Shown here: one piece after another, positions 901-64,000 of the stretch
How positions within the stretch are numbered: position 1 is the first letter of the stretch
How the letters are laid out: each line of letters starts with the position of its first letter
NCBI GenBank assembly: GCA_018902385.1
Contig: JABSSW010000002.1
Coordinates: 558,001-622,000, forward strand
DNA: 64,000 bases
DNA from: Physcia stellaris
Lineage: Eukaryota; Ascomycota; Lecanoromycetes; Caliciales; Physciaceae
Reading direction: 5' to 3'
The notes under the pieces: generated by a model
Told to the model about the DNA's origin: nothing
Databases searched by the model: none
The model's input: the letters and a program-made list of their open reading frames with translations, nothing else
Translations under genes and position numbers: made by a program

Positions 901-3747
901 GCAAATGTGATGCGATGATGTCATTTATTCATTTTCATATTTTATTGATTATGTCGTCGTCGTTTGAAATTTTGTTCGAATTTTGCTTGATTATGATTTT
1001 CGTCATTTCGTGAAATTGTATGTTTTTCAGTTTCAAATTCTGATTGTATGTGATTTTTTGTATGTCGATTAAAACTACTGTAAACGACGAAAAAAAAATT
1101 TTTTTTCAATAATATGAATGTTTTTTTGATTGAATCGATTTTTGACAACATAAATGAATGATCGTGTAATGTCGATAAACAAATTTTTTTCGAAATTTTA
1201 TTTTTTGTTCATTTGCATGTTTTTTACATGTTGTTTGATGTATCACATCTTTCTTCGATTTTTTTTTTGTATTGTGTTTTCATGATTTTAGAAATTACGT
1301 GATTCAAACGATTTTTCACTTTTTTGTACGACTTTCACAAATTCTCGATTTTGTCGTTGTTTTGATATTTTTTTCTGATCGATTTGATCGTTCTCGATGT
1401 CTGTTTGCATTTTTCGATGAATTTTGATTTCGCGTAAACATTCGATTTGTTGATCGAAATGATTGTTTCGATAATTGTTTGAATGATTTTTATCAATTTT
1501 TTGATTTGATCGTCGATTTTTTTTGTTTAATTGTTGTACGTGTCGTTAATAAAAATGAACGTTTCGTTATTCGTTATTTTTGTTTGCAATTTCTCGCGTA
1601 ATATATCGATGTTCGTTTTCGTTCAAATTTTTGTAATTTTCGACGTGATCGTTTTTGTACGCAAATTCAATATCGTTTTGATTGAACGATAATTCGAATG
1701 ATTGTTTATGTTTTCGTCGATGTCAATTTCGATCATGTTATTTCGAAACAACGATATTGCGTATGTGAAATCGATCGTGTTCTCGTTCGTGTGTTTATTT
1801 CATGTAATTAATTCGATCGATATGATTTTTTTTAATTTATATTTTTTCATCGTGATTATGAATTCGTATACGTTCACGTTTGTTTTCACATGTGATTTTT
1901 TTCAATTGAAATGATGCAAATTAAAATTTTTTACAACGACGTGTTTTTCGTTAATTTTTTTTTGCATTGCATTTTTGAAATTGAATATCGCGTTGAAATT
2001 TTCGTTGTTTTTGTATGAATTATACATGTTGTGAATGTTGATAATTTTGTTGTTCGCGATTTGCATTTTTAATAAAATCAAATTTTTGTTGTGAAACGTG
2101 TGAAAATACACGATTTTCGTTATTTTTTTGTTGACGAACATGCACATTCTCGTGATTGCGTCGAACATGTATAATAATTCGAATTGTTGCGAAAGTTTGT
2201 TGTTTGTCGTGAATTGAAATGAATTTTTTCACGATTTTTGTATGATCAATATATCGAATTTTTTTATGTTTTCAATTTCGAACAACGATATCATGATTTG
2301 AATTTTCGAATTATTGACGTTGTATTGTAATATAAATAACGTGTCGTTTTTTAACATTTTTTCGTTGATTTGAATTTCGTATTTCGATTCGTGACATCAA
2401 ATAAAAATGTTCTGATAATCGTGATCGAAAAACTTTTTTTTTTTTCAAATTTTTCGTATTTTTTTTTGATCGTTGATGTTTTTTTGTTTTTGATCGATGA
2501 CGTCGATTTATCGTTTTTTCTATTTCGAAATTTTTGTGAATTTGAAAATAATTGCGATGACATTTTGAACTCGATCGACAAAATCATTTTCACGTGAAAT
2601 TCACGCGTTCGTTTATTTGCGTTTGTTGATTTCGTTTAAATAAATTTTTTTTTGATGATTTTTCGATATCACGTCGTTGTATTTTTTTTAATTGATTGAA
2701 TTTTTTCGCAACGATTGTCGTTTTCGAATTTCTTTGAATTGTATTTATCGATTTCGAAATTGTTATCATTTTGTTGACGATGATGTATTGTTATCGTTGA
2801 ATTTCGAATTTCGTTGACGTAATCGAACGTTAATACATAATTTTTTCGATTTTTTTTTGTTTTTTTTTGCATTTTTTTTTCATGAATTATGTGCTTTTTC
2901 ACATACACAACATTTGATTTTGTAATTTTTTGCACATTTTTTTTTTTGTAACATGCGCATTTGCGCAATAATCGCATCGTTTTTTTTTTGTGCATTGAAT
3001 TGTATTGTGCTCGTGATAATGACATTTATAACATTGAATAATTTTGCATGTTTTGTTGAACATTGAGCAAATTTTCAGTTTTTTTTCGATCATGATGCTG
3101 TTGTTCAACATACTGTTATTCATTTTTGAAATAATGATTTCAATAATCAAAATATGATATTGTTGCATTGTCGTGAACTTGTTTTTTCAAAACACGTACA
3201 AAATTTTCATTTTTTTTAATTTTTTCACGTTTTCGTTTTTTTTTTTGATTTTACGCATCGTCGTTTTTTTATTTTTTGTCGTTGTTAAATCGAATTTTTT
3301 GATTTTTATTTCGTTGATCATGATCGCGTAAATCGAAACGATCGTTTTCGTTTTTTTATCGAATATCGTCGTTCATGCATTGTTGTTTCGCAATTTTTTT
3401 GTTTTTTTTGCGTTTATCGCGTGTATCGCGAAATCATCACTCGAAAATTTCTTGATCGCTCGAATACTTTTGATTTGTATGTTCTTTTTCGTAATGCACG
3501 TGTTGATTTCATTGACGATACGTTTGATTTCGTATTGATTCAATTGTTGTTTTTTTTCGTTGTCGTTTAAACGTATTATGATTTCGATGTTTTTGTTTGC
3601 GATAATTTTGAACGTTGAAAAATCGCAACGACGATTGTTCAATTGCATGAATTCGTCTTGATCGTGAAAAAAAAAAAAATTTGAAAAATAATTATTTCTG
3701 TAATTTCATGACGAATCATGACATTGTTTTTTTTCATTTTCGCGTGT
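900..3747 (-). mobile_element. Tad-like LINE relic (ORF1 and start of ORF2), minus strand
   Basis: Reading the minus strand downwards, 3648-3373 resembles the conserved block of Tad-type ORF1 (motifs EIIIRLNDNE and FSSDDFAIHA). Then 3168-2899 carries two zinc knuckles: C-x2-C-x4-H-x4-C (starting CYKCHYHEH) and a second starting CDYC. At 2168-1902 the reading matches an APE-type endonuclease (INIHNMYN, then KNFNLHHFN at the place of the usual GDFNLHH). The reverse-transcriptase part is not recognisable. The copy is broken in all frames and almost devoid of CpT/ApG and CpC/GpG, so it was mutated to near saturation. A Ty3/gypsy element interrupts it at 3747/10269. The low-coordinate end near 900 is set only by the loss of recognisable motifs. 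Confidence 0.7.
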
Positions 3748-4056
3748 TGTAAGACATTCAGAATTCAGATCAGCAAAACATTGCGAATCGAATTTCGATA
3801 AAATTATATCAAGCAGTTCGATCATCGAAATTCGATAAATCACGAAAACGATCAATTTGATCACGTCAACATCAAATTTTCGATTGAATTCAACAAATTC
3901 ATATTTTCGAATAGATCTCGAAGTATGTGTACGATTGAACAAATTGACTGATTATATGAACAAAAATCTGAAAGATAGTTAACTTTGCAATTATTAATTT
4001 AATCATACAATCGTCTCTGTTATACATTTCTGATGTCACATTTTTTGAATTTTACA
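3748..4056 (+). repeat. 5' LTR of the Ty3/gypsy element
   Basis: This 309-bp direct repeat pairs with 9960-10268 without gaps. It starts TGTAAGACATTC and ends ATTTTACA. The 5 bases before it (CGTGT) pair with the 5 bases after the 3' LTR (CGTGC). Confidence 0.88.
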
Positions 4057-7000
4057 TTCTAATAATTATCATAATTCATAAATTAACATCATTCGTGTAT
4101 ACAGCATGTTTACATTTTTCATTAATATGAATATTTTCACGAATTTTGAAAATGAATTCATTTTGAATTCATCAAAATCAAATGTCATCATGAAAAAGTA
4201 TCGAGCATACATTTAACAACAACATGCTCGAATGAAAGCATTACAAAATGCATTTACATTTACATTCTCAGTCGCTCAGATTTTTGTCATTAAGGAAAAA
4301 TCGTTTTATATCAAGATAATGAGCGACAAATCAAAATTATTCTTTGAGAACAATTATAAAGAATGAATTCAATACGTTTGAGAAATGAAAAATCAATTCG
4401 ACATGAATCAAATGAACGATTACGTCAAAAATTCTGACAAGATCAAATTCTTTTTTGTTGTCATTTTTCTAAAAAGAAGATTTATTGCACAATTATTATG
4501 AAATGTCAAAATCAAAAACAACTCAAAAAAAAACTATATTTGAAAAAAATATGTCGATTTTCTCAAAAAAAACATCAAAAAAGCTTTCATCAAAAAGAAA
4601 AATAATTTCGAAAAATATAAAAATTACAAACAAAAAATCAATCAATCAATAAAAGATTACGATGCACATTGCATCGCTTTGTTTTCGAATTTACATTCAA
4701 TTATGAAATTTTCATCAGCAATAAAATTACAGAATTTCGTATTGAATTTAATTCAGAATAATCAGAATTTTCTGATCGAACAAAAAATTGAAAACGACAA
4801 AAAAATAATTCTTAAACGTTTCAAGCAACGAGAAGATTTTCAACGCAAAAAACAACGCAACGTCAATCAAAATAAATTTGATGACGACTTTAACAAACGC
4901 AAAAAAAACGAGAATAACTTCGATGAAAACGAAAACAACAATCGTCGATTTAACAAAAATCGACGAAAAAATCGAAAAAACGATAAAAAATTCAAATTTG
5001 ACAATTTTAATCGCGAAACAATCAAGTTCAAAAAATTATGACGTTGAATCAGAACTGAATACAAAAATATCGTGAATAACAATAAATGCATCGATTGCGA
5101 TAAATCGAAATGCAATATTAAAAAATGTAAAAATATCAAATCGAATATCGTTTTTTTCGAAAAATTTTTTCAAATTTTAAATCAAAAAAATAATCGATTT
5201 GATAATTTTCAATCAAATTGATACGAAAAAAAACTCAATAACAAATGATCGCATCGATTCAAATTCGAACGAATTCAATACGTTCATTATCGAAATCAAA
5301 AACGCAAAACGTCGTTTTAAAAAATTTCGCACGATCAAATGCAAAAAAACAAAAATCAAAATAAATAAAACATTTGACGAAAAAAATAAATTGAAATTCG
5401 AAATCGTTATGAATTCAAAAGCAAAAATCAATTTAATAAATCAGAAATTTGTTAAACGATTCGAATTAAAATCATTCAACGTATCGAATTGCGAAACAAT
5501 GATTATAAAAAACAATTCATTCAAAAATTATGAAATTTATTTTGTACAATTCGAAATACAAAACGAAAACGACGTGAATCGTTTTTTTAACGATAACTTT
5601 CTAAACACGAATTTAAATTGAAACATGACTTTAAATTTGTTCTGAATACAATTATTTGAAATCAATATAGATTGAAACATCGACAAAATCGAATCGTGAT
5701 CAGTGACTGTAAAATCGCTTTTTTTTATCACAAGTCGTATTGAGAAGATCGAATCAAAAGAATTAATCAATGCAATTTTCAATGAAGAAAAACACGTTTT
5801 CGTCATGTTCGTACAAATGATTTCTGAAAAAATAAAATATTTGAATGACGTACACATCGAGCGACGATCGCAAATCGACTTTGCTTTCTCGAAAATGAAA
5901 AAAAAAAATATCAAAAGTTCTTTATTTGAAATCTTGAAAGAATTCGTTGACATGACAAATGAAAACAAAACATACGAATTATCTGATCATGAATTCGACG
6001 ATCACGCAATAAATTTAAAATCAAACAAAAAATCATCGTATGAATTCATTTACGCATTGTTCGAAAACGAACTCAAGATTTTGCGAACATATCTGAATAA
6101 ACATCTGAAAAACGAATTTATTCGATTTTTCATTTTTTTTGCGAGCGTTTCGATCCTGTTCGTTAAAAAAAAAAACGAAATTTTACGATTGTGCGTAAAT
6201 TACAAAAATCTTAATCTTTTAACGATCAAAAATAGATATTTTTTATCATTAATCGATGAAAGTCTGAATCGCCTAAGCAAAATCCGAAAATATACAAATC
6301 TCGATATGATAACGATTTACAATCGACTTCGTATCAAAAAAAAAAACGAATGAAAAACGACGTTCAAAACACGATACGAACATTTTGAATACATCGTTAT
6401 GTTTTTCGATTTCACTAATGCATTTGCAACGTTTCAAAGTTTCGTCAACAAAATTTTGATCGAGCGATTAAATTTGTCGATCATTGTTTATTTGAACGAT
6501 ATAATTATTTATTTCAAAAACGAAACACAACACGTCGAAAACGTCAAATGAATACTAAATCGTTTAAGAAAGCACAAACTTTATTTTAACATGAAAAAGT
6601 GTAAATTTTTCAAAAATAATATCGAGTTTTTGAACTTTATCGTTTCATCGAAAGAAATGCAAATGCAACAAAACAAAATCGAAATTATACAAAATTGATT
6701 TGCATTCAAAAACGTGTTCGAAATTCTCGAATTTCTCGAATTGTGCAATTTCTATAAACGATTTATCAAAAATTTCAGTAAATTGACATTATTCTTGATT
6801 TTCATGCTAAAAAAATCAACAAAACTTCATAAGAAAAAAACTAAAAAAAAGCGAAATCGAAATAAAAGTCACAATAAAAAACGATTATCGAACGAGTTTT
6901 TAATTTTCGAAATTTTCGAATCATTCAAACGATTACGCAAAACGTTTATGAAAATTTCTGTTTTGCAACATTTCGATTCGATTAGATTCATTCGTGTGAA

Positions 7001-9959
7001 AACTGACGTCTCGAATAAAACAATAAAAAAAATACTTTGTCAATCTGACGATAAAAATCATTGACATTCGATAATCTACTTTTCAAAAAAAATAATATTC
7101 GCGAAATGTCACTATGAGATTCACGACAAGAAGTTTCTGATCATAATTTTCGCATTTAAACATTGACGTCATTATCTGAAAAAAGCGAAAAAACAAATTC
7201 TCGTTCTGACGAATCATCGAAATCTCAATCGTTTCATGATTACAACAAAATTATCATTTCGACAAATACGATGAGCACAAAAATTGTTACGTTACAACTT
7301 TGTCATCGATTATCGTCTCGACAACAAGAATTTTGCGAACGATTTGTCAAGACGATTTGATCACATGACGATTACAAAAAATGAAATTGAAAACAATCGT
7401 CAAATCCTGACGCGTTTGCGACAATTTCTACAAGCAAACTCGAACGAATTTTCGATTTATGTGAGCGAAATTAAAGCTACGATTTTCGAATTCAATGAAA
7501 GTGAAATATTCGCGTGCGAATTTCTTGAAAAAAATGAAAAGAACAATTTTTCGAATGATCTTTTTTCGCTCTAAATACATCAGACGTGATTATCAACGAA
7601 TGAAAAACATTAATACTGAATAATGCAACGATTTTCGAATCGATCGATGAAATGACTGCGCGAAAACATATTCATGAACATAATGCAACATACGACGATA
7701 ACATCATTGACAATTTTGTCGAGCTGATTCGTTCATTGTTAAAAAAATCCTTGTGCGATTCAAGTGAAACAAAAATTAGTTATTTTTGAAAAGTCACACT
7801 CGTCTTGAATAAACGAAAAAAAAAATACTATGACATGAAAACTGTTTGTACGTTTCATCGAGTTTGAAAAAGAATGTCATAAAATCAAATCACGACAATT
7901 TTTTCGCAAGTCACTTCGATGTAAAACGCATCTTAAAGTTAATACGAAGAAAATATTACTGATCGAATCAAAATAGAGTCGTTGACGTCGAGCACGATTC
8001 AAACATGCGTGCACAAATAAAAAAATACTGCGAAACATGTGCAATTTGCAAAAGAAACAAGACATTTCGTCACAAATCATATGAAAAATTATCATTTCTT
8101 TTTATATCGAAATTCAAATGAGCTGACATTACAATGAATTTCGTGACAAATCTATCTGAAAACAAAGCATGAAACGAAGCAACGTATGATGCAATACTAA
8201 TTGTCGTAAATCGTTTGACGAAAATGACACATTACATTTCGATCAAAAAGACAATGATCGCAAAAAATCTCGTCGAAATACTGATTCGAAAAATCATTAA
8301 ACTTCATGATTTTCTTTTTCGATAACAACAAACAAAAATTCGATTTTTATTTCAAAATATCACGACGTTTTATATTACGTTTTAAAAATCAAATTTAAAT
8401 TATTCACGACTTATCATTCGCAAACAGATGATCAGACGAAACGTCAAAATTCAATCATGAAACAATATTTCAGAATTTTCGTCAATTTTCAACAGAATAA
8501 CTGAATAAAATTACTGTTGATGATTGAATTTGTTTACAACAACAATAAACATGCGTTCACGCAAATGTCGTCTTTTGAAACAATGCAAAAATATATTTCG
8601 AAAATGTCATTCGAGAAATTTGCAAATTTCAAAGTTAAATCAAAATTTGCAAAAAAACATGTCGAAAAACTGATCGAATTGATGAAAATATTAAAAATCA
8701 ACTTAACACAAACACAAAAACAACAAACCAAATACAAGAATGCAAAGACAAAAATAAAACGCTTTTACGTAAAAAATTACGTTAACGTCAATGACAAGAA
8801 CATTCGCATCAAACGCAATAAAAAACTCGAATGAAAGTCTTTCGATTCATTCAAAGTACTCAAAACAATAAAAGATCAAGCATATCAATTCGAAATATTC
8901 AAGCGTTGACGAATTCATGACGTCTTTCACGTCTCGTTGCTGAAAAAAGTCAAATCTAAAAAGAAAAAAAAAATTTCGCTAAAATTCACGTATCAATCGA
9001 ATATCGAAAATGACGAAAAACTCACGAACGAGAAATTCTGAATTGAAACAATTCTGAACAGCAAAATCTATAAAGAAAATCAGATTTCGGATAAATCATA
9101 CAGTGAGTCAAAGTTTTATTATCTGATTCAATGAAAAGATTACGAAAAACGTACTTGAAAATCAGTTGCAATGATTAAACATTTAAAAAATATGTTTCGA
9201 AAATTGCACATGAATAATTCGAAAAAAAACGATGTCAGCAAAATCATCAATCGTCGACGCGTTCGACGTCAAATAAATGTGATTTTCACGATGAAATCGC
9301 TGACAAAAAAATTCAATCTTCATACGTAACTCGATGCTACTTACTGTCTAAAACTTACGACGCATGAAAAACTGAATCGTGTCAGAAACATTTTCAGAAA
9401 TTGCTGTCCGATCTGACTGAACGATAAATATATGAAAATGAAATGAAAAAAAAAATCGAGAAAATTTTCGAAGTCTGATATATCGAATGCGATCGCGACT
9501 ACGACGTCTTGCGCGCTTGAACATTCTCTCATGAATTCGATATACGAAAAAAAAAAAAACAAAAAAATAAAGAATGATTCGAATTCAAAATTCATTGTCA
9601 ATCAATTAACTGTCAATCATCAAATCGAAAACTGTGAATTGTACGAAATCAGATTTTCGATTCTGAAAACAACAAACAGTAAAATCGTCAAATCACGCTT
9701 TTTCTGAATCACTCAAAAAAATGTACTTTCAAATTTTTAACGCAAGTTGATTAAAAATCGAAATGAAAAATAGTCAAATGCGAAAATCACGATGACAATG
9801 ATTTTTCAATTCAACGATTTACGAATGCGAAAATCGCGATTACAACGATTTTTCAAATCTCAAAAAAACATATTTACACAAGTTTAACAATCTCTATTGC
9901 GAAACATGCCGAAAAATATCGATCATTTCAAGAAACTTCGATGCTAAAAAAAAAACGCA

Positions 9960-10268
9960 TGTAAAACATTCAAAATTCAAATCAACAAAACATTGCGAAT
10001 CGAATTTCGATAAAATTATATCAAACAATTCGATCATCGAAATTCGATAAATCACGAAGACGATCAATCTGATCACGTCAGCATCAAATCTTCGATTGAA
10101 CTCAACAAACTTATACTTTCGAATAGATTTCGAAGTATGTGTACGATTGAACAGATTGACTGATTATATGAGCAGAAATCTGAAAAATAATTAACTTTGC
10201 AATTATTAGTCTAGTCATACAATCGTTTCTGTTATACATTTCTGATGTCACATTCCTTGAGTCTTACA
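9960..10268 (+). repeat. 3' LTR of the Ty3/gypsy element
   Basis: This 309-bp direct copy of 3748-4056 starts TGTAAAACATTC and ends GTCTTACA. It differs from the 5' copy at about 28 positions, all transitions, 27 of them at CpT/CpC or ApG/GpG sites. Confidence 0.88.
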
Positions 10269-10640
10269 CGTGCTTTTTGTTGAATTGAACAGTCATTTTA
10301 TTCATTGCGTTCATCATGTTTTTTTGAATAAATGCAAATTACGTGTTTTCAAAATATATCACGACGATTGTAAATCAATTTTCGATGATTTTTGATGATG
10401 ATTTTTTTTTTGTTCGAACGAATTTTCGACATTTTTTGATGTTTTTCAGCAACATTGTTTTTTGTTTGTGAACATTTTCGTTCGTTTGATTTAATTGCGA
10501 TCATGTAATTTTTTTCATCATCATCAATTGTTCATTGATCGATGCGCAAAAATTAAACGAATCGAATGACGCGTCAATCAGATCAATATCACGTTTCGTT
10601 GTTGAATTATTTCAAAAATTCAGTTTGTAGCATAAATTGT
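10269..10640 (-). mobile_element. Continuation of the LINE relic (5' part), minus strand
   Basis: After the gypsy 3' LTR the sequence resumes with the same AT-rich, TCGA-rich texture as the LINE. On the minus strand it reads as polar, Met/Gln/Lys-rich sequence suitable for the N-terminal part of a LINE ORF1. The matching 5-bp target duplication on either side of the gypsy copy supports continuity with 900-3747. The block ends abruptly near 10,640, where normal-composition DNA begins. Confidence 0.5.
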
Positions 10641-10648
10641 GTTTTTTT

Positions 10649-10774
10649 CCTGGTAACCGAACAAACCGACCAAATGGACAATTTAGGGTTGGCAAACCTT
10701 TTTCAACGCCCTAACCCTAGGGGGCTGCGGCCAACCCTAGGATGTCCGGTTACTGGATTTGTCCGGTTACCGGG
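10649..10774. mobile_element. 126-bp foldback/MITE-like element with 45-bp inverted repeats
   Basis: The first 45 bases (from CCTGGTAACCG) and the reverse complement of the last 45 bases (CCCGGTAACCG) match at 35 of 45 positions without gaps. The two arms surround a 36-base loop. The inner ends of the arms read TAGGGTTGGC, and the loop holds CCCTAACCCTAG, which resembles telomere repeats. No clear target-site duplication is visible. The element sits exactly where the AT-rich block gives way to normal DNA. It could be a non-autonomous DNA transposon or a structured boundary sequence. Confidence 0.55.
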
Positions 10775-11696
10775 TGAATCCATCTATTCAAAAATCAATC
10801 GATACGTTCCTCCTGTCATCGGCCTAAAATTCTACAATACAGCCACCCCTGAGCGCGACTGCCGCACAAAAGTGTCTCATTATAAACTTACCAAGGCCTA
10901 CAATTTGCAACATATTCCGTCATACAAATACATGACATCTCTTTTCGTGAGAAGTAGGCTTCCGACTACTCTAAACTGCATAGGTAATCCTCGATAAGTG
11001 TCTCATCGGCTCGATGCAAGATTTGATATCTCCCCTTTCAACCTTCCCTCCTCCCAAGCCTGCCTGCTCTCAAGATTCCGCGATTCAGCGATCATGAGCA
11101 CCGTGATCTCTGAACTCATCACCATTCCATGCGGACGAGAAGAAGCCATGCACCGAATGTGTCCCCCGTTCATGGTAACTTTCCTCGCTCGGGTGTCCGG
11201 AATCCATGAGAGGGCAGAAAATTGCTGCTTCTACTCTAATCGAATTTTGGAATACCATGACCCTGAAAACTACCATGCTTGAGTTTTCAGAGATGCCCAA
11301 TTGAACCGCGGTACTCGGTACATGGAATCACTATCGAGAATGACACAATGGAATCTTTGATATATGGTCGTCGTCACATGATTTAGGGGGAAGTGCACAG
11401 AGACTTGTTGATCTACTTGACTAACACGAAAATTCTGAGCTTTCCAATTAGGGACAGGAGACATATGGTCGCTAATACAAGATGGACTACTCGCCGAGAC
11501 TATGATCATGAAGGATCTTTGTAGCATTCTGAGCGAGGCAACGTCTGAGTTGAACTGAAAGGAAATGACCCGGTTCGTATGTGGCAAACAATGTTCTGCT
11601 CTGCAAAGAGGACCAGGTAAAATTCAGGTGATATCTACATGGCGACGAAGCTCTAACCAAGCGAACAAAAAGATGACCAGACCCACTATACATCGG
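10775..11696. other. Intergenic, no convincing gene
   Basis: This is normal-composition DNA. Short open frames exist on both strands, for example 10998-11282 (+), but none shows a recognisable domain or a consistent splice pattern. Confidence 0.4.
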
Positions 11697-49253: not shown

Positions 49254-52057
49254 ATGCCTATCAATCAAGCTAAGGTCAAGAGCGTCCTCTCAGGAGACAC
49301 TCTCATCCTCACAGCTGTCAACAACCCGAATCAAGAGAGGACCTTGAGTCTTGCTTTCGTGAGTGCTCCGCGAATGAGGCGGGAGGGCGATGAGGTACGT
49401 GATACCCCTTGCTATTGATCAATTGCCTTCTTCTGGGTTATCCGCTCAATGTCCGTCTAGCCATTATCTTGCACGGCAGGCTAACGGTCGTCATGATAGC
49501 CTTTCGCCTTTCTATCGAGGGATTATCTGCGCCGCATGACCGTAGGGAAAGTTGTCCGGTTCAAGGTCCTATACAACATACCGACTGGTGTGAAGCGAGA
49601 TTATGGAACCGTTACTCTACAGTCAGGAGAGTCACTACCTGAGGCTGCAATCTCCGAGGGATGGGTCAGACTCAGGGATGACGCTGGTCGTAAAGATGAA
49701 TCCGAAGAGTCAAAAGCCTTGCTAGAGAAGCTGGAGTTACAGGAAGCAAAAGCTAAGCACGAATCAAAAGGTACATGGGCGCCCGATGGGGGAAGCTGGA
49801 AACCGCATTCGAGATACCCGACGCGAAAGCTTTCGTCGAACAGTGGCAAGGCAAGAAGGTTGACGCCATAGTTGAGAGGGTTCTTACTGGCGACCGCATG
49901 GTTCTGAGGCTGTTTGTTTCGCCCTCAAAACATATACAGACGCTAGTGCTCGTAGCCGGCATACGTGCCCCGGCCACAAAACGCACCAATCCATCTGACG
50001 GCAAGGAGCAGCCAGCAGAACCATTTGGTACCGAGTCACATCAATTTGTGGAGACGCGGTTGCTACAGCGGAATGTTGCAGTTGATGTACTTGGATTAAG
50101 CCCACAAGGCACGCTTGTCTGCTCGGTGAAGCATCCAAATGGTAGCATTGCCGAGTTTCTGCTCAAGGCTGGACTGGCGAGATGTACGGACTTCCATTCG
50201 ACAATGCTTGGTACTCAGATGACCGTCCTACGGCAAGCTGAAAAGCAAGCAAGAGATCAAAAGCTTGGCGTTTTCCAAGGAGTGGCAAGTACACAATCTT
50301 CAACTTCTAGTGATGTCGAGGCTACCGTGTCAAGAGTCCAGACAGCAGACACTGTCTTTCTACGGACGAAGTCTGAAGGAGAACGGAAGGCGAGTCTGAG
50401 CAGTATCCGACAGCCAAAACCTACAGACCCCAAGCAGGCTCCATTCCAGGCCGATGCCAAAGAGTTCTTAAGGAAGAGACTCATTGGTAAACATGTGAAG
50501 GTCTCCGTAGATGGTAAGAAAGCTGCTTCAGAAGGATATGAGGAGCGTGAGGTTGTCACAATCATCGTCAACAATAAGAACGTAGCTCTGCTGCTTGTCG
50601 AGGCAGGATACGCATCAGTTATCCGACATCGAAGAGATGACGGTAAGTAGCAGTCAATCTTGGTAGCCTTCTCAGCTTACTCTGTTATAGATGATAGGAG
50701 CCCTCATTATGATGAGCTACTTGCAGCGGAAGAAGCCGCACAAAAGGACGAGAAAGGGATGTGGTCACCAAAACCTCCTGCTGCAAAAACCTATCAAGAT
50801 TACTCCGAGTCCCTTCAAAAAGCCAAGATCCAATCGTCTGTTCTACAACGACAGAAGAAAATACCAGCCGTTGTTGATTATGTCAAATCTGGCTCGCGCT
50901 TTACCGTGCTGATACCACGAGAAAATGCAAAATTGACCTTTGTTCTGTCTGGCATCCGCGCGCCACGATCTGCTCGAAATGCGAACGAAAAATCTGATCC
51001 TTTTGGCCAAGAAGCTCACGACTATGCTAATCGACGGTGCATGCAGCGGGACGTTGAGATAGATGTCGAGGGTACAGACAAAGTTGGTGGTTTCATCGGC
51101 GCACTCTACATTAATCGAGAGAATTTTGCAAAGCTCCTGCTTGAAGAAGGATTTGCAAGTGTGCATGCATATTCCGCCGAACAGTCAGGCAATGCCAACG
51201 AGCTTTTTGCTGCCGAACAAAAGGCAAAGGATGCTCGTAAAGGTATGTGGCATGATTACGATCCCAACGCCGAGGAAGGTTCAGATGCCGTTGAAGAGCC
51301 TGCAACAAATGGTCATACAGTCAATGGCGATTCAACGCTAAACCAGAAGAAAGACTACCGAGACGTCTTGATCAGTCATGTCGAGCCTACTGGTCGGCTG
51401 AAACTTCAGTTGATCGGTTCAGGTACTGCTTCGCTCACTACACTGATGTCCTCCTTCGCCAAGTTCCATTCCTCACCTTCCAATTCCGCTCCATTACCAG
51501 GACCACCTAAAGCCGGCGATTATGTTGCGGCTAAATTTTCGGAAGATGGCCAGTGGTACCGAGCTCGTATTCGCCGTAACGATCGTGAAGCCAAGAAGGC
51601 TGATGTTGTTTTCATCGATTATGGAAACAGCGAGTCACTTCCCTGGTCATCGCTTCGGCCTCTCTCCCAACCCCAATTCTCTATCCAAACTCTCAAACCT
51701 CAAGCAGTTGACGCCGCGCTCTCATATTTACAATTTCCTAATGCTCAAGAGTACCTCACAGATGCTGTTGACTTTGTAGGTGGTACGATGGCAAATAAGG
51801 AGTTGGTTGCCTCCGTGGACGCCACGGAAAAAGATGGAACTTTATGGATTACCTTGTTCGATCCTAAGAGTCAGGCTGCAGAAGATGAGAGTCTGAACAA
51901 GGAGATCGTTGCTGAGGGCCTTGCAATGGTTGCTAAGAAATTACGAAGCTGGGAGCTAGGGCGCGGCAAAGTTCTACAGAGTCTGAAGGCCAAAGAGCAA
52001 GAGGCCAAAGGTGAGCGACGAGGCATGTGGGAGTATGGGGATTTGACAGAGGATTGA
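49254..52057 (+). CDS. SND1: Tudor-SN nuclease (SND1/p100), with a one-base frame break
   Basis: Exons are 49254-49394, 49500-50642 and 50691-52057. The protein shows the family layout: repeated staphylococcal-nuclease-like domains (for example KVVRFKVLYNIPTG, LVAGIRAPATKRTN and FVLSGIRAPRSARN), then a Tudor domain (YVAAKFSEDGQWYRARIRR, then VVFIDYGNSESLPW) and a last partial SN domain. SND1 binds and cleaves RNA and is found in RISC, splicing and stress-granule complexes. The frame shifts by one base in the G-run at 49788-49792. The first frame gives KGTWAPDGG and the next resumes with KLETAFEIPDAKAFVEQW, with no room for an intron. One extra G would keep the frame, so this is either a sequencing or assembly slip or a real one-base deletion. 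Everything downstream is intact. Confidence 0.9.
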
Positions 52058-52651
52058 GATACCACAATTGCTCAATTGAGAAGGGTCACCAATAGACGGC
52101 ATTGACGGGAGATAGACACGTAAATAGGGGAACAATGGTGATAGATAGATAACCCTAAAACCTACGGATGCTTCTATACTGCAGACGTTTTTTGTTTTTT
52201 ACCAGTAGTGTGAGCAAGGGGAGGATGTGACCGTGCAAAATAGCATATGCATCTAATTTACTAATAAATATCATTCAGATCAATCAAATTTTTCGTTTTT
52301 TTTTATTTCGTTCTCATTGATTTCGCTGTCGTCAATTTTGTATAATAACTCGTTGATGTTTTGTTCGCAAATATTTTTTTTTCATTTTTTCGTTTTCATT
52401 TTCATTTTTTATCGTCATGAATTTTTTTGCAAACAATTTTCGTTGTCGTTTTTTTTCGATTTCGAAAATCAATTGTTCGTCGTCGTCAACGAATCAACAA
52501 TCAATTTATCATCGTCAAAAACTTTTAGATCTTTTTTTTTTTCATTTTTTTCAATATTTCGTTCAATTTCGAAATCATTCGTCGACGTGTTTTTGACGCG
52601 TCGAAAATTTGAACTTGAACTATTGCAAAACACGAATTTTATTGATTTTTC
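52058..52651. other. Transition from the gene island to the right AT-rich block
   Basis: Normal DNA continues to about 52,260. From there the sequence switches within a few tens of bases to T-rich and TCGA-rich DNA. The 52,270-52,651 stretch is the target into which the copia element inserted. Its own family was not identified. Confidence 0.5.
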
Positions 52652-52844
52652 TGTTGAAAAGTACGATGACAAAAAACTGAAATATGAACACGAATAAAAT
52701 CAAAACTTCTGATTGATCGATTAAACGAAACGTGTCAAAATCGATCATTATTAAAAACATTTGCGCAATCAAATTGTATTTATTTTTGTACGTAATTTCG
52801 ATAATATTGCATGCAATGCAATGACAATCATTCACATTCGTTCA
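52652..52844 (+). repeat. 5' LTR of the copia element
   Basis: 193 bp, ungapped match to 58308-58500 with five differences, all transitions. Confidence 0.85.
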
Positions 52845-55800
52845 ATAAATTATGAAATTCGAATTAACATAAATTTTTTGTGATTGTCAACGTCAATCGT
52901 TCGATCACGAAATCACGAAAATCAAACAACAATGAAAATGTTTCATCGATTCGATCGCGTCAAAATTGTAAAAATGTTTTACACATTCGAATTCGATCAT
53001 CAATTCAACGAATGAACGAACGATTATGAAAATGTTTTACGAAATACAACAAATAAAAAAAATTTACATATTTACATATCATATCACGCATCATGAACGA
53101 TTTCGAATTTAACAAATTCAATGTTCGTCGAATTTGCGATATTTTCACTCGTCAAAATTGCGAAAAATGATTCAAATTAATGAAACAATAATTCATTGAC
53201 GAAAAAATTTGAATGATCGTCGATTTAAATTATATATCGAAATTGTTGTCGAATAATTTTCGAAAATCAAAATGAAATGTCGATTTGAATTTTGATAAAA
53301 AAAAAATTGAAAAAAAATTCGACGCAAAAACACAATATCAATTCATCGAATGTATCGATGACGATAATCAAAAATTGATAACGAAATTGAAAATTGTCAA
53401 AAAAATTTGAAAAATTTTTGTCAACAAATACAAACAAAAATTTGTTACAATTGAACGACAATTGTTGCAAAAATTCATGAATTACAAAAAATTTTCAAAC
53501 GTGATTATTGAAATCGTTTATATCGATATCATCAAAAAAAATCGCAAAATTGCAAGCATGCAATCAAACATAATAAATTTGTTCAAATCAAAACGTCGTT
53601 TTCAAACATTTTTAATATTTTTGTTTGTCGAATACAATGTCATTCGTGATGCAATCGACGCACAAAACAATTTCGATATCGATAAATTTATTCAAAAATT
53701 GCAAAAAAAAAAAACACAATTTATTGCGAACAAAATCGTCGAATCGACGTTGATGATCAAAAACAATCGTTGTCAATCGTATCGCATATTTCAACGACGA
53801 TTTTTTAATTTTGATAAAAATTCTCGTCGTCGTTTCAAAATCATGACGAAAAAAATTAAAAATTGTTTTTTTTGTGACGATTCACACAAAATCGCCGAAT
53901 GCAATTTTTTGAAAACATTAAAAAAATGAGCAAAAAAACAACAAATCAAAAAATTGTTCACAATCAAAAATAAAAAAAAAACAAAAAACATAAAACGTAC
54001 AACGTCGCAAACTTTTTTTCGTTTAACAACAATTTCAATTTCGACATCGACATCGATTCAAACAATGAAAACGATATGAAAAAAATCGTCGTTTTGTCAA
54101 AAAAATTGATCAATAAATTTTTCAAATTCGTATGAATCGCAAATATCGACGTTTCGTCACACATGATTAACGATTTTCGATTTTTTAATAAATTTTTCAA
54201 ATCGATTAAAAAACGCACGATCAAAATCGAAAAAAAAAATTGTATTCAAATCAATGTGATTCAATGACGATACGCGTCAAAAATGATAAAAACACGTTAA
54301 CGAAAATGCTTTATGTATTTGATTTCGACGTCAATTTTTTATTCGACAAACATTTTATCAAAAAAAATTTGATAAAAAATTTTAATAACGATAATTTGTT
54401 CATGCGCAATAAACAAAATGTTGAAATATTTCGAACATTCGTTCAAAAAAATGTTTACATAATAAACAAAATCACATCAAAATTTAAAAAATACGCATTG
54501 TTAACGAACAATACGATGTTTGCAATTGAATTTTTTAAAATCTTGTTTGTTTCATTTGCAATGTCAACAATCGTGAATTCGAACGAAATTTTGCTCGATG
54601 CAAATATTGATTTTCGAAATGATATCGAAATCGATTTTCAATTATCGAATGTTGATTCAAATATCGATTCAAATGTTGATAAAAAAAACGTGATTTATAC
54701 GAATTATGATATCGACGTTTTGATCATATGAAATTTGCAAAATTTCGAAATTTGCACAAAATCACAATTTTACGCAAATCGATTTTCATCGTCGAAAATC
54801 GCAACGATTCATATAAAATATGTGCGATTACGAAAATGATTAATGCACATAATCATCGTTTAATCGAACGCAAAACTCATATATTGAAATTAATGTTTAT
54901 TAATATTTGCGAATTTTTATTTGTTTCAAAATTCGATTACGAATACTTTTTAAAAATCGTGAATAATCATTTTCGACGAACGTGAATTTTATTTTTTCGC
55001 AAACGAATCGATGTTTTTGAAATTTTCAACAAATAAAAATTGAAAATGAAATTAAAAATTCAACGAAAATTACAAACAATACGTTGTGACAACGTCAAAA
55101 AATTGAAATTCATATTCGATTTTTGATGCGAATTTATCGACATTGTTTCACAATACATCGTTTCGTATAATTTTATTCAAAACGATGTAATAAAGCGTGT
55201 CATAAAAACGTTCGAAAATCAAATTCGAACAATGATTCAAAATGCAAAACTGTTTATAAAATTCTGATTTGAAACAAAGAAAACAAATGTATATGTTCGC
55301 AATCGTATGAACACGAAATCAATAATCGACGACAATTCAACAAATTTTATTGAAATTTGAACAAATATTAAATCGTCGATAAATCACATACGCGTTTGAA
55401 AATGCAAATGTTATTCGTTCGTTAATATCAAATCATTGTTCGAAAAAAACAAAAAAAACAAATTCGTCAATACAAAAAAATCAAATGTGTTCATGAATTA
55501 TGACGAAAACATCATCATTCAATACAAAATATGAATTTTTGATCGTCGCGATGTCATTAAACATTACAAAATAATGTTTTTTGAAAACGAAAAATGAAAA
55601 AATAAATCATTAAATTTGTTCACGATTACAATGAACGAATTATTTAAAAAACGATTTGTCGAAAAATCACGTAAAATAATTTTTGCATTTGCAATCGTTT
55701 CGATGACATCGACGTTTACATTCGTTTTTGTTGCATCAATTTTTGCGAAATTTTTAATTTTTATTGCGTTTATGATTTCGAAAAACAAAAAAAAATTCAA

Positions 55801-58307
55801 TCAATGCACATGAAAAAAAACGATAAATTTATCGATACATCAAATGAAAAAAATGAAATCAACGAATTTACGACGAAATCGACAATTCAAACGCGTGTTA
55901 AATTAACATTTTTCACGAAATTTTCACGCATGATGCAACAATTTTTTCACGTGACAATTTTTAAACGTAAACGAAATATCACGAACGAAAAAAAACGAAA
56001 TGAACATTTCAACAAAATTGCACGCGTCATGATGATTTTTTTAATCGAAAATTTTGATACGTGCAAACACGATAAATGAATTTTATTTGCAACAACAAAA
56101 AAAATAAATCGACAATTCGTTGAAAAATTAATCATATTTGTGTTCGAAAATTATCAAAAGACTGTCAATGATTTTATTTGAAATAAATTTTGATTCGAAA
56201 TTATTCAAGTCGAATTGACGACGTTAATAATTAATGAAATTTGAAACGTCGTCATTTCATCGAAAAACGTCAATATCGTCATTAATAAATGAATGTTCAA
56301 AATCAAAATGCATGTGAATGATACGTTGAATAAATTGAAAATCAAATTCGTTGCAAAAAACTTCTCGCAAATATATGAAATAAATTATACAAATATTTTT
56401 GTTTCAACTGTCAAATTCGATATTTTTCGTTTGTTTTTTGTCATCGTCGCGTTGAAAAATTTCGAATGTCATCAAATGAACGTCAACAATGTTTTCACGA
56501 AATCATTTTTAAAAAAAATAATTTACATGAAATCGTCATTCGACGTGAATTTATTTTTCGAACAAACATTTTTGATTCGTCGAAATCTTTATGAATTGAA
56601 ACAAGCGATTAAGAATTGACACGAACGTTGCGTAAAAAAATTGCACAAATTGAATTTTGAACAAATTTCGATTAATTTTTGCATGTTTCGTCATAAAAAA
56701 CGAAAAATCATATTATTTTTTTACGTGAATAACATTTTCGTTGTCGTCAAATTCAACGAACAAATCAACTGATTCAAAAATGAATTCAAAAAAATATTCG
56801 AAATCAAAAATTTGAAAAAAATGAAAAAAATTTTTGACATTAAAATCATTCGCGATCGTAAAAAACGAATTATTCGATTGAATCAAACTCATTATCTGAA
56901 CGAAATATTGAATGAATTGCATATGAACATCGATAAACACGAACGTACGAAACTATTCATGAACAATTACGATTCATTCAAATCAATTGAATCGAACGAC
57001 GAACGAATTGACTCAAAAAATTATCAACACAAAATTGAAAAATTCATGTATGTTGTCATACACACTCGTTCAAATATCGTTTTCGCATTAAAACGATTAA
57101 ATCAATATTTCAATGATTTTGCGAAACATCACGATAAAACAATGAAAATTTTGTTTCGTTATATTCGATCGATCATCGATCTAAATTTTGTATACGATTT
57201 GAAATTGAACAACAATGAAAATTTCAAAGTCAAAATTTATTCGAATTTTGATTACGCAATCAATAAATTAAACAAAAAATCGATTTTCGAATACGTTTAC
57301 ATGTTCGTCGAAAAATCAATATTATGAATGAATCGTAAACAAAAATCGATCGCTATTTCAATTATTGAAATCGAATATATGACTTTATCGACATGCGCTA
57401 AAAAAAAATTATGAATAACACAATTTTTTCATGATTTGAATTTCATCAAATATTTTGAAATCGAATTGAATTAAATAACAATCATTCAAAACGATAAACA
57501 TGAAATTTGTTTATCAATGCAATTTTTGAAAAATAATCAAATCGTTAATTTGTTGATCAAAAACGCATATATTCATAAACGATCAAAACACATTGATGTG
57601 ATTTATCACAACATCAAAAATTTGCATCAAAAAAATTTGATTTAATTGAATTACGTTTCAAATGCAAACATGATAATCGATGATTTAATTAAATCATTGT
57701 CAAAAAATAAATTCAAAAAATTCGTGAAACAATTAAAATTGAAAAAATCGAAAATCAATTAAATTTTTTTCAATAATTAAAATTATTTTTTTCATGTTGA
57801 TGTGCTGATGATTCAATCGTACACATTTGACGAATCATGATCAAAAACGAAAATTCGTTGATCGTGTTCGAATTCGAACTGCATGATAATTCAAAATGAT
57901 TTTTTCTGAAATCGTTCGAATTTAGTTTTTTGATTAAAAAAAATCAATGCTTTTTTCGTCAATATTAAAAAAATTCGAATTTAATGAAAATTACGTCATT
58001 TTTTTCATTTTGAAACGATGATGATTCGATTGTACGAATTTAACAAATTATAATTGAAGACAAAAACTCGTTGATCGTGTTCAGATTCGAATTGCATGAT
58101 AATTCAAAATGAATTTTTTCGAAATCAATTTTTTGATCAAAAAAATTCAATGTTTTTTTCATCAATGAACGTAAAAATTGAAATTCAATGAAAATTACGT
58201 CGTTGCACGAATTAACATTCAATGAAAATCACAATCAATGCAAAAATTAAAATTCAATGAAAATCGCATTCACGAATGCAATGAGCATGATTGTCATCGA
58301 ATGAAAA

Positions 58308-58500
58308 TGTTGAAAAATACGATGACAAAAAATTGAAATATGAACACGAATAAAATCAAAATTTCTGATTGATCGATTAAACGAAACGTGTCAAAATCGA
58401 TCATTATTAAAAACATTTGCGCAATTAAATTGTATTTATTTTTGTACGTAATTTCGATAATATTGCATGCAATGCAATGACAATCACTCACATTCGTTCA
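58308..58500 (+). repeat. 3' LTR of the copia element
   Basis: 193 bp, ungapped match to 52652-52844. It starts TGTTGAAAAATACG and ends CATTCGTTCA. Confidence 0.85.
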
Positions 58501-59169
58501 ATATTTTCGTCAATAATTTATGAATTTTCAATACGAAAAAAAAAATTTTATCAAAAAAAACATTCGAACGCAATATTTTTTGTGTCGATTTTGAAAACAA
58601 TTCGTCGATAAAATTGAATATTACGAACGTCGATTCAAAACAATTCGTCACGTCGAATTTTGCGATATGAAATTTAAAAAAATTTGACAATATAATAAAT
58701 TTAAAACGTGTATATCAATCAACATAATATTTTTCAAAAAAAAATGTAAAATGTATAATCACGACATGAATTTCGTCGATCAAACGAAAATCAACGACGA
58801 AATTCAAAACGTCGTCGATAAAAAAATTGTCAAAAATTATAAATTTGTTCACGTTAACAAAAACATGCAAAAAATTAAATAAAAAATCAATTATGTCGTT
58901 TTGAAAACGACAAATGATTTAATCATGAATTTAAAAATTGTGCACAATGCAAATGCAAAATTTTTGAAAATCAATTTTGATTTTTATCGTCGCGATAACG
59001 ATTTTTGTTGACAAAATCAATTGAAAATTTGTTATAAAAATATGCAACGTTTGAACGAAAATTACGTGTTTCAAAAACTGATAATCACACGTCAATTCGA
59101 AAAAAAAAAAATCAAAAAAAAAATAAAAATGAAAAAGAAAAAAGTCGAAAAATACGAAAATCACGCAAT
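58501..59169. repeat. Degraded AT-rich repeat DNA
   Basis: This stretch is heavily mutated, with almost no CpT or CpC. It may be the 5' part of the MULE-like relic that follows, but no motif is legible. Confidence 0.4.
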
Positions 59170-59700
59170 TGTTTTCGCAAATCGAAATGAATAATTTTTT
59201 TTATTCGACATATATCATATCAAATTAATTACATGTGATTCAAAACATTTGCGAATTTTAATGCGTCGCAATCATTTGTTTTTTATAAATTTCATTCATG
59301 ACAACAATTCATTGAAATGAAAATTTTTCAATTTAATGATTCGCGACGAACACGTTTGTTAATAATTAATCGTTCACATGTTCAACAATAACGAAAACGA
59401 TAATATTATTGTTATTTTTCTTATATGCGTCAAAAAATGATGTAAAATGTGAATTTTTCGATACGTTATTATCGATGACTCAACGATCGAACAACGAACA
59501 ATACAATTTGTTTTCAAAAATTTCGAAATCGACGAACAAATAATGTCGCATTTTTTGTGCAAAACATATTCGAAACGAACACTCAATCGTCAATTTGCAA
59601 AAAATTGATGCAAAAAATCGAAAAAACATTTTTACAAAACGTTATATTTTCGCAAAATTCGTGAAAATTGAAAAAACAACATTAACGAAATTTTCGTTAT
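59170..59700 (+). mobile_element. Relic of a MULE-like transposase
   Basis: Plus-strand readings between about 59,450 and 59,640 contain RYVIDDSTIEQRTIQFVFKN followed closely by SHFLCKTYSKRTLNRQF. These resemble the D-D-S-x-x-E-Q and H-x-L-C-x-x-H/Y-S-x-R-T-L blocks of fungal MULE-type transposases. The Asp and the Leu-Cys signature are visible. The copy is fragmentary and interrupted, and no terminal inverted repeats were found. It stops where the LTR-like tandem repeat begins. Confidence 0.45.
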
Positions 59701-60056
59701 TGTTACGAGCATGTCTGACAGATAAATCGAACAGATAAATAATTGATATGATATATGATCGAACAACGAATTATGTTTTAATTTTACATTGAAATTAACG
59801 TAATTTGAAATTTGACGTCGCACATTGTTTGCAATTTCAACATTTTGTATTTATTTGTTTTTGCAAATTTATTGTTTTTGTTACGAGCATGCCTGACAGA
59901 TAGATTTGACAAATAGATAATTGATATGATATGTGATCGAACAACGAATTATGTCTTAATTTTACGTTGAGATTAACGTAATTTGAGACTTGACGTCGCA
60001 CATTGCTTGCAATTTCAACATTTTGTATTTATTTGTTTTTGCAGATTTATTGTTTT
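59701..60056 (+). repeat. Tandem pair of 178-bp LTR-like units
   Basis: Units at 59701-59878 and 59879-60056 both start TGTTACGAGCATG and share the tract from ATCGAACAACGAATTATG through TATTTATTTGTTTTTGCA. The differences are mainly transitions. The second unit continues past 60,056 towards a possible LTR end near 60,108 (ATTACA). The first looks like a truncated copy of the same LTR. Confidence 0.7.
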
Positions 60057-63000
60057 CGTCTAGTTAATCAATAATACGTCTATTCAAGCACGACTCATGA
60101 TATTACAATAAATTTTCAATTTTTATCGCTCGTCGTGATACGCGAGCGTTCAAAAACAAAATTTCAAATCGATTAAGCTTTTCTGACGAGACAAACGACG
60201 AAAAACTTTGTTGATCAGACAAACGACTCAAAAGTTCTTTTGACGAGACAATTGACGAAAATCGTGAAATAACAAGTCGAATTTTCACGCAATCGACGAT
60301 AAAAGACGAAAATTGACACGATTAATTTTTTTTTCTTTTATCATTTTCAATTTTTCATTCTCAGTTATGATTCGAAATCATTACGAAACAACTTTTTTCG
60401 AATTTTTTACTTTGATGAAACAACGTTTCAAAATGTTACGCGTCAACGTGAATCGTATGTTTCATAAAATTAACGACAACTTTTTTGACGAAAATTTCGT
60501 TGATCAATTCAAACGTCGTCGATTTGTATCAACGATCGAATTCATAAAAGTGAAAAATGACGAAATCATTCATTTTTTGAATATCGTCATCATCGATCAA
60601 TTGAAATGATGAATCAATCATAAAGTCGTCGACTTTTTAAAGAAATTTGATCGATTACGCATCGATCGTGACAACTATTTGAACGTTTTGATTCAATATC
60701 AGAATTTGTACAATATTGTCAACGTCGATCGTGACGAGTTGATCAATACGAATGTCGAATTAAATGAAATTCGTCGAAAATTGAATATTTTGAAAAGCGA
60801 ATACGAAAAACAACGTGATTTACTCTTGATCAAACAAAAAAATTACTCTTTTTTGAAGAAAAATCACGATGTTTTGTTGATCAAGACTCGCGATCGTGCA
60901 CGAAACTTTGACGTCGACGATGAAAAAAACGACGATAAAATCAACGTAATTAATTTTTTTCAAAAAAACAAACGACGTTTCAAAACACATTCAGATTTTT
61001 TTAAATTCATCGATGAAGTAAAACTCATTTGACGTGTTTGAAAAACAAAAATACACGATAAAATGACGATTAACGTTGATCATTACGACACGAACATGAT
61101 CGCGATCATTATTGTAATTGACTGAATTGAAAATGATGTCGATAATCACATACAATCGATTCGTGATATTGATATGAATCATTTCAGAATTTGACATATG
61201 ATGTTGAAATTTTTGAACATTATTTACGAAAATTTTGATTTCAAACGCAATATGCGTAATCAATTTCGAACATTAATCATGAATATTCAAAATTTTCAAT
61301 TTTTTTATTTCATTTTTTTTCGTTTTAACAATTCAATTGATTATAGCGAAATCATCAAAATCGAAAAATTGATGAACAAAATTTTTTGAAATTTGAAAAA
61401 AACAATGAATGTATATTCACGTGAATTTATCATGTTCGATGAAATTCGAATCATTTTGCAACAAATATACAATCGACAATCGAATTTTCGAAAAAAAAAA
61501 ATCGCGACACGTCAATAACGTTTTGAATTGTTTCAATTCAAATCAATTTTTGTCGTTTCGATTTCGATGTTTTTTACGAAATTTGTTATCTCGATTTTTT
61601 TCGTGAAATTTGTCGTTCATTTTCATCTCAGCGTTGAAATCAAGACTCGTGATTCGATGACAAACAAATTGATCGTCACGAACAAATGTTTCACATGCGA
61701 TGAAATCGATCACGTATGAAAAAAATGCTCGAACGTTCACAAACATCAAAACGTCATTGACATAAAATGCAAATGTTTTACATGAACATGATCAGCGAAT
61801 CGAGCGAATTTGATTCGGAAAATTGATAACTCACATCAAAGACGCGATTGATGAGTGTTTAAGAATTTTCTTTATTCATCATGACGAATTGTTTGACTTT
61901 TTTGTCAAACGATTTCTAATTATCAATTGTACGTTGTCATTTAACGATAATAAACATAAATTAAAAGCTTTAATAAACATTGATGCAACTGATTATGCTT
62001 TCATTGATAAAGAAATTGCGCAATTTGTATGCAACATGTTGAGCATGAATTTCGTATTTTTATTAAAATCGAAATTCATTATCGAATTCGACGATCGTCA
62101 GATTTTTTCAATAATTCATGTCATTTATTTCAAGTTGACAATTGATTTGCATTTCGAATTGACAGTTTTTTTGTTCATCATCGATCTGAACAATCATTCG
62201 ATAATTTTAGAAAAATCGTGAATGAACAAACATGAAATTATTTTGAATATGATTTACGATAAATTGATTTTCAAATCGTTCAAATGTAATCATCATGACA
62301 ATATATTCATCAAAACAATGCAAATTCGACGTTTGAAAATTTTTGATTCAAATCGTCGATAAAACGTATTTAATTGACGTCGCGATATTTTTTTATCGAA
62401 AACAAATAACGCGAAACATATTGTTGCAATAAAATTTCGATATACGATTTTATTTCGTTCGCAATTTAGATTTTTAACGTTTTACGTACAAAACGAATCA
62501 AACGTATTCGATTCAAAATGTTTCGATTGTTTTATTCATTCGAAAATCGATCAAGATGACGAGTCGTTCGTCGTTGAATCAAATCATTCAAAAATTGATA
62601 TCACAACGATTACGAAACGACATTCGTCAAAAAAAAATTTGAAAAAACAACGCAACAAGCGTTGAAAAATCAAAAACAACAATTCGAAATTTTTTCATTT
62701 TCGAAATTGAATTCAAACGATTCGATGAATATCGCGATAATTGATGCGATTTTTTTGTTTATTCGTCGATTTCAAAATCGAAAACAAAAAATGCAATGTT
62801 TTTTCATTACGATTAATCAAATCGATTTCGCGTTCAAAACATTGCGAACAAATTTTGAATCGTTGAAAATTGTTGTCATGATCAAAAAAATTTTGAAACA
62901 CGAACAAATCAAATCGATTCTTGAACGTATAATGAAAAAAATATCGAAATATTTCAAACATTTGACAAAAATATTTGATTTTTAAAAAACAATTGAATTG

Positions 63001-64000
63001 TCGTCGCATCGAATTTACGATCACAAAATCGAATTTTTAAACGATAACAATACATTGTTTCGAAATCGAATATATTTTTTGTTCGAACTCAAACTTCAAA
63101 AATTCAAAAATATTTGAAAAATAATTTTCAAAAAAATTTCATCGTATTCAATCAAACAACATACGTTTCGTTCGTTTTATTTGCAATCAAATCAAATGAT
63201 CAATTACGTTTGTGTGTGAATTATCGACGATTTAATCACATCACGAAACGCAATCGATATTTCATTTTTTGATCGAAAAATTTTAATTAAAATGCAAAAT
63301 TGCAAATATTTGATCAAACTGAATATCATATCGATTTTCAACAAATTTCGAATGAAGTGAAAAAAATGAAAAATTCATCACATTCGTTATTTTCATGAAA
63401 TCGTACAAATATCGAATATTATTTTTCGAATTGATCAACGAATTCGCGAGTTGACAACATTACATGAACGATTTGTTGTTCAATTTTTTGAACGATTTTT
63501 GTCAAATTTATTTAAATGATATTTTCATTTACAGCAAATTCAAAAAAAACACATCGTTCACGTTCGTAAAATGTTGAAAAAATTCAAAAAAATCGAATTA
63601 CAAATGAATATTGAAAAATGCGAATTTTTCAAAAAAAAAATGACATTTTTGAACGTCATATTATCGATGAATGATTTTCGCATGAATTCGAAAAAAATAA
63701 AAATCATTGTCAATTGAAAACGTTTTACAAATTTGAAAAAAATGCAAATTTTCGTGAATTTCGTCAATTTTTACAAACGATTCATTCGTGACTTTTCGAA
63801 AAAAATTCGAATTTTCATTCGAATGATCAAAAAATTCGTGAATTTCGAATGAATTGTTGAAATCGAAAAAATTTTCAATTTTTTCAAAAAAACGATGATC
63901 GAAATTTTCATATTACGACATTACGATCGAATCAAACAAATCATTTTGAAAATTGATTTTTTTGATTACGTCAATGCGAAAATATTATTTCAATACGACG
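59879..64000 (+). mobile_element. Second Ty3/gypsy element, broken, 5' part only (runs off the window)
   Basis: An LTR-like start lies at 59879 to about 60108. A Gag-like polar region runs about 60310-61800, with a CCHC-type knuckle near 61,690. Then come an aspartic protease about 61820-62230 (legible as KALINIDATDYAFIDKEIAQ) and the first part of a reverse transcriptase from about 63,150. The window ends before integrase and the 3' LTR. It belongs to a different lineage from the copy at 3748-10268, judging by LTR sequence and protease. It is broken, with many interruptions. Confidence 0.75.

Follow-up and report, generated by a model that had tools for sequence, protein, structure and literature searches.

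According to the published passages compared here, RIP in Neurospora changes cytosines in the order CpA > CpT > CpG > CpC (PMC5496416). The locus described below resembles Neurospora crassa in that C-to-T changes lie on both strands of repeats, that genes of the RID and DIM-2 types are present and that element ends are more mildly mutated. It is unlike Neurospora crassa in its order of targets, which is CpC > CpT >> CpA ~ CpG, and the expectations of the Neurospora type (CpA as main target, raised TpA/ApT, lowered CpA+TpG) were not borne out. A CpT signature beside CpA was reported for Botrytis, Sclerotinia and Magnaporthe, and a motif in RID was proposed for this CpT targeting (PMC4352252). 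The CpT target is common to these fungi and the present case, but there CpA is also a target and CpC is unlisted in the passage compared, whereas the present DNA has lost CpC first and kept almost all CpA. Trichoderma reesei, given as CpA ~ CpG over CpT > CpC (PMC5496416), departs from the Neurospora order as the present locus does, and the order stated for it is close to the opposite of the present one. CpG-biased RIP-like mutation was described in Microbotryum and other basidiomycetes, in a passage noting that targets vary between fungi (PMC4352252), whereas here CpG is the best-spared site.

In ascomycetes, rDNA copies hit by RIP are described as mutated mainly at CpA (PMC5555474); the rDNA unit of the present genome likewise carries C-to-T changes over its whole length, but at CpC and CpT instead. 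In Colletotrichum truncatum CpT or CpA is hit depending on the family, with CpT in several of them (PMC6180176), and both are hit in Anisogramma (PMC10998396). CpT-to-TpT changes dominate in alignments of RIP-capable controls (PMC7882544) and CpT change is high in Neurospora Tad1 (PMC2621366). SNPs at CpC were the most closely spaced class in one basidiomycete, in a mutation that the authors call CpG-biased (PMC4014442). These three observations, and the CpT families of Colletotrichum truncatum, count against rarity. In the CpC passages of PMC2621366, PMC5496416, PMC5555474, PMC8959702 and PMC4014442, neither CpC nor CpC together with CpT is named as the site that RIP chiefly hits in repeats. 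As far as these passages go, CpT mutation is already documented by the published cases; what sets the present DNA apart is that CpA is spared and that CpC goes first. The preliminary description of this DNA had called such a specificity unusual beside the CpA preference of Neurospora, a description that holds as far as the passages compared go.

The window, that is the whole stretch of 64,000 nucleotides analysed here (G000:C2:558001-622000), belongs to a genome of 44 Mb in 147 contigs. The following features were delimited.

1-10640, no strand: left mutated island, CpY erased (CpC+GpG 16 and CpT+ApG 429 in 10640 bases)
3748-10259, forward strand: LTR retroelement with 300-base direct repeats at 3748-4047 and 9960-10259 (91%)
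10648-10776, no strand: short unmutated stretch adjoining the left island, with terminal motifs resembling the L035 DNA transposon
10650-52250, no strand: control stretch with genes, CpY normal, 41.6 kb between the islands
52260-64000, no strand: right mutated island, CpY erased (CpC+GpG 3 and CpT+ApG 166 in 11741 bases)
52652-58503, forward strand: Copia-type LTR element with direct repeats at 52652-52847 and 58308-58503 (97%)
62829-64000, forward strand: Gypsy-type fragment, mutated, from the reverse transcriptase / RNase H part; 74% identity with the unmutated copies L045 and L046

The claim that CpY is nearly erased while CpA and CpG survive had been based on a hand count at 57061-57120 and 57181-57360. 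A recount gave the same 4 CpT+ApG, 0 CpC+GpG and 15 CpG, with 26 CpA+TpG where 25 had been counted, and the host sample at 51361-51420 again yielded 9 CpT+ApG, 4 CpC+GpG, 8 CpA+TpG and 4 CpG. Counts over whole regions bore the claim out, with CpY lost in both 1-10640 and 52260-64000 and not in 10650-52250. Per 1000 bases, CpC+GpG was 0.3 in the right and 1.5 in the left island against 116.8 in the middle, and CpT+ApG was 14.1 and 40.3 against 135.0. The corresponding values for CpA+TpG were 129.2 and 127.4 (middle 136.5), and those for CpG 60.1 and 57.0 (middle 52.6), so that the CpG depletion expected from methylation-linked decay was not found. The ratio C/(C+T) was 0.002 before C, 0.037 before T, 0.555 before A and 0.482 before G in the right island, 0.010, 0.105, 0.548 and 0.476 in the left one, and 0.443, 0.500, 0.607 and 0.435 in the host stretch. 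CpY was lost on both strands of both islands, and the transitions at the borders near 10640 and 52260 span about 100-200 bases. TpA/ApT was lower in the islands (right 0.38, left 0.43) than in the middle (0.69), showing that the loss of CpY is not a mere effect of AT-richness. A search of the islands for a longer target motif at -2, -1, +2 and +3 revealed none with an effect comparable to that of +1; CCA and CCG are scarce there because their first pair is CpC.

Both LTR elements have domain matches that contain TGA stops. There are 2 in the RVT_1 match of the left one at 6162-6641 (G000:C2:564162-564641) and 4 in the RVT_2 match of the Copia-type element at 56233-56928. With a 601-base probe taken from the Copia-type element, 37 places in the genome were found. 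A Pfam search with 5 window frames from the islands gave no match for any of the 5.

The direction of mutation was established with L045 and L046, unmutated Gypsy-type copies with a GC of 0.49 and 0.51. Compared with L045, the fragment at 62829-64000 was changed to T at 125/126 CpC, 158/168 CpT, 3/151 CpA and 2/128 CpG, that is at 283/294 CpY and 5/279 CpR (Fisher p about 4e-142). Over 1171 positions, 137 C>T and 151 G>A changes were counted beside 12 other substitutions, and divergence at other sites was about 2%. The comparison with L046 gave 138/138 CpC, 156/164 CpT, 2/145 CpA and 4/138 CpG. A comparison of L045 with L047 and L048 was dropped, as these belong to other families (46-47% identity). 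L045 (G000:C5) and L046 (G000:C12) are themselves 96% alike; C-to-T differences of L045 against L046 amount to 12/144 CpC, 7/170 CpT, 2/149 CpA and 6/144 CpG, and possibly represent a light first hit.

A second pair consists of DDE-type DNA transposons, the mutated L041 and the unmutated L035, compared over 2471 positions. Changes to T affected 222/278 CpC, 185/305 CpT, 20/295 CpA and 18/310 CpG, or 407/583 CpY against 38/605 CpR (Fisher-tested), the CpY changes being divided 193 and 214 between the strands. At CpA and CpG, 6-7% were changed, which is close to how far the two copies diverge in general. The mutated share was 0.25 and 0.42 in the end bins and reached as much as 0.93 between them, and such milder mutation of element ends is known of RIP.

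The third comparison concerned L034 (G000:C41:41501-51500), a whole rDNA unit which is itself CpY-mutated and holds the one 5.8S match that was found in the assembly; the 5.8S search revealed no unmutated rDNA. Against conserved Rfam letters (upper-case letters only, in selected alignment blocks, 568 positions), 43/45 CpC, 29/51 CpT, 1/38 CpA and 0/34 CpG were changed, which gives 72/96 CpY and 1/72 CpR (Fisher-tested), and no C had become A or G. The small-subunit gene of this unit contains intron-like inserts that leave as many as 328 positions unmatched. In all three comparisons C-to-T transitions affected both strands, and CpY mutation is common to LTR elements, a DNA transposon and rDNA. 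CpA-type RIP was rejected, as CpA was changed in only 3/151, 20/295 and 1/38 cases in the three comparisons, and so was CpG decay, with 2/128 CpG mutated between L045 and the window fragment.

The reach of the mutation was evaluated in 620 windows taken from the window and from L013-L032 and L034-L048, which are chosen repeats and rDNA and not a random genome sample, and some of which were counted twice because L040 and L044 overlap. GC was below 0.36 in 479 of them, and 473 of these 479 keep less than 0.2 of CpY. In the classification of windows, 17 of 400 were dropped with a GC between the cut-offs. The chosen repeats are hit, and single-copy DNA, represented by the 41.6 kb control, is spared. 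The predicted GC of gene DNA with all CpY erased is 0.242, and AT-rich windows average 0.271. A set of 618 windows of 500 bases, where double counting arises from L040 and L044 and also from L033, which sits inside L034, was sorted by remaining CpY. Where CpT stood at 0.198, CpC was already at 0.039 and CpA at 0.551; from the least to the most mutated class CpA fell from 0.603 to 0.522, and CpG stayed at 0.43-0.49 throughout. CpC is harder hit than CpT, and older copies also show some CpA mutation.

The latter was visible in 17 Copia copies, namely the window copy and 16 of 20 loci (L016, L023, L026 and L030 were omitted as shorter). T made up 8.1% in C-majority CpA columns against 3.2% in CpG columns, and of 644 CpA columns in which C occurs, 349 are variable with C as the commonest base. 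Pairwise C/T differences numbered 16187 before A, 22439 before T, 5981 before G and 392 before C, the last value being low because almost no C is left there to differ. CpA fell below 0.35 in 5/479 AT-rich windows. Three stretches (L021 8501-10000, L026 1-500 and L031 9001-10000) have a GC of about 0.18 to 0.2, CpA of 0.32-0.38 and CpG of 0.36-0.43. Together with the Copia variation, these low-CpA stretches suggest that CpA is mutated slowly, either because the same enzyme is weakly active there or through another agent.

Stop codons carry the same signature. In 297 scored transposon matches (150 from the best 150 of 527 RVT_1 candidates, 137 from the best 150 of 165 RVT_2 candidates and 10 from 11/11 DDE_1 candidates), TGA was found 695 times, TAA 137 times and TAG 6 times (TGA 695/838), and 15/297 matches had no stop at all. 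Mutation restricted to CpY makes TGG->TGA the direct route to a stop, while CAA, CAG and CGA would need changes at CpA or CpG, which explains the dominance of TGA. In the pair of L045 and the window, all frames taken, TGG had become TGA 21 times and was never kept; CAA was kept 33 times with no listed change, CAG had become CAA in 15/18 cases and CGA was kept in 26/27. With CpY targeting, Gln and Arg codons thus rarely become stops, and elements are broken mainly by TGG->TGA and missense changes. The 137 TAA stops require some other route.

Among the methyltransferases of the genome, one, L010, is DIM-2-like (best solved chain 9bap, 604 bits), and two, L009 and L011, are RID/Masc1-like. The latter two both contain PPCQ and share 39% identity over 195 residues of the catalytic part; their putative assignment to the RID/Masc1 type was made from motif features and from a published description. 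RID/Masc1 proteins are described as lacking a portion of the methylase domain (PMC4352252), and in vitro catalysis by RID is listed as not detected in the relevant passage of a 2026 review (PMC13297926). Three checks had been proposed in the preliminary description, and the dinucleotide counts, the polarised repeat comparisons (C-to-T at CpY, little change at CpA or CpG) and the finding of RID-like and DIM-2-like genes all agree with it. C-to-T changes mainly at CpA, or an equal CpY depletion in host genes, had been named as contrary outcomes; the changes were not mainly at CpA, and the gene stretch showed no such depletion.

As read from the DNA itself, the mutation has a direction, acts on both strands, has a defined context, separates repeats from the adjoining gene stretch, far exceeds background in density and leaves TGA-type stops. 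RIP fits C-to-T changes on both strands, repeats beside untouched genes, and hundreds of changes against about 2% divergence. The explanation that we regard as strongly favoured is RIP by an enzyme requiring a 3' pyrimidine, with CpC > CpT >> CpA ~ CpG. The target would be a C with a pyrimidine on its 3' side, CpC being most mutated, then CpT, with CpA and CpG at or near background. The process would be RIP proper, acting before meiosis and triggered by pairing of copies. There is about an even chance that the mutator is L009 or L011, the RID/Masc1-like cytosine methyltransferases, its target pocket having been altered. It is likewise about as probable as not that one RID paralogue came to recognise a 3' pyrimidine in place of A, yielding RIP with near-absolute CpY selectivity that first removes CpC, the site given as least favoured in Neurospora.

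The main rival, to which we give a distinctly smaller but real chance, attributes the mutation not to a RID-like enzyme but to the DIM-2-like one, which would act in heterochromatin and choose CpT and CpC. The gene is present, and according to the passage of the 2026 review methylation by DIM-2 prefers CpT; yet the passage also gives all CpN contexts (PMC13297926), whereas here the change at CpA and CpG is lower by a factor of 50 to 100, and CpC was changed more than CpT. Slow deamination of 5-methylcytosine in silenced repeats methylated at CpY, without RIP, appears improbable. The C-to-T direction and a silencing-type methyltransferase would suit it, but 283/294 CpY were changed in 62829-64000 against about 2% of other sites. 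This gap is too wide for slow decay at known deamination rates. Editing of single-stranded retroelement cDNA by an APOBEC-like deaminase could draw on the fact that CC is the preferred site of one human APOBEC-like enzyme; it was rejected as very improbable, since it predicts strand bias and confinement to retroelements, whereas both strands are equally hit and a DNA transposon and rDNA are mutated too. Ultraviolet-type damage at dipyrimidines, or simple drift towards AT, could appeal to CC and CT being dipyrimidines and to the islands being AT-rich; it was rejected as next to impossible, because TpCpA and TpCpG are kept in the right island (0.61 and 0.48 against 0.67 and 0.44 in the host) and island CpG density is at host level.

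RIP directed at CpY, as favoured above, has a consequence for detection. With indices as given in the passage of PMC7882544, the composite RIP index was -0.91 in the left island, -1.06 in the right one and -0.59 in the gene stretch. Standard indices therefore rate the mutated islands less RIP-like than gene DNA, and the earlier statement that indices built on TpA/ApT and CpA+TpG miss such mutation holds for the regions examined. A 2025 survey, in the passage compared, reads RIP-like defence as sharing the CpA preference (PMC12543289); with that assumption and a lower index in the islands, CpY-type RIP could be missed. If a RID paralogue did switch to pyrimidine, such lineages would score as RIP-free in index surveys. 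RIP of the CpY type would come to light with an index built on CpY, or from the proportion of TGA among the stop codons of dead transposons. As target choice and chemistry of RID are unsettled, a natural, near-opposite dinucleotide choice would offer proteins for comparison and for swapping into a laboratory fungus.

Some smaller observations concern the extent of mutation along elements. The right LTR of the left element (9960-10259; also 10101-10300) has kept more CpT than its surroundings, with 11 of about 50 CpY per 100 bases. The unmutated stretch at 10648-10776 contains GTAACCGAACA at 10653 and TGTCCGGTTAC at 10743 and 10760, and is likely a short non-autonomous element, as judged from these motifs. 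A short unmutated element by the left island and milder mutation at element ends, both single cases, would fit a lower limit of duplication length for RIP. In L038 (G000:C25, a DDE_1 locus), CpY-erased patches of 200-300 bases, at about 1000-1200, 1600-1900 and 2500-2700, alternate with normal DNA; mutation may have been confined to the parts that match another copy.
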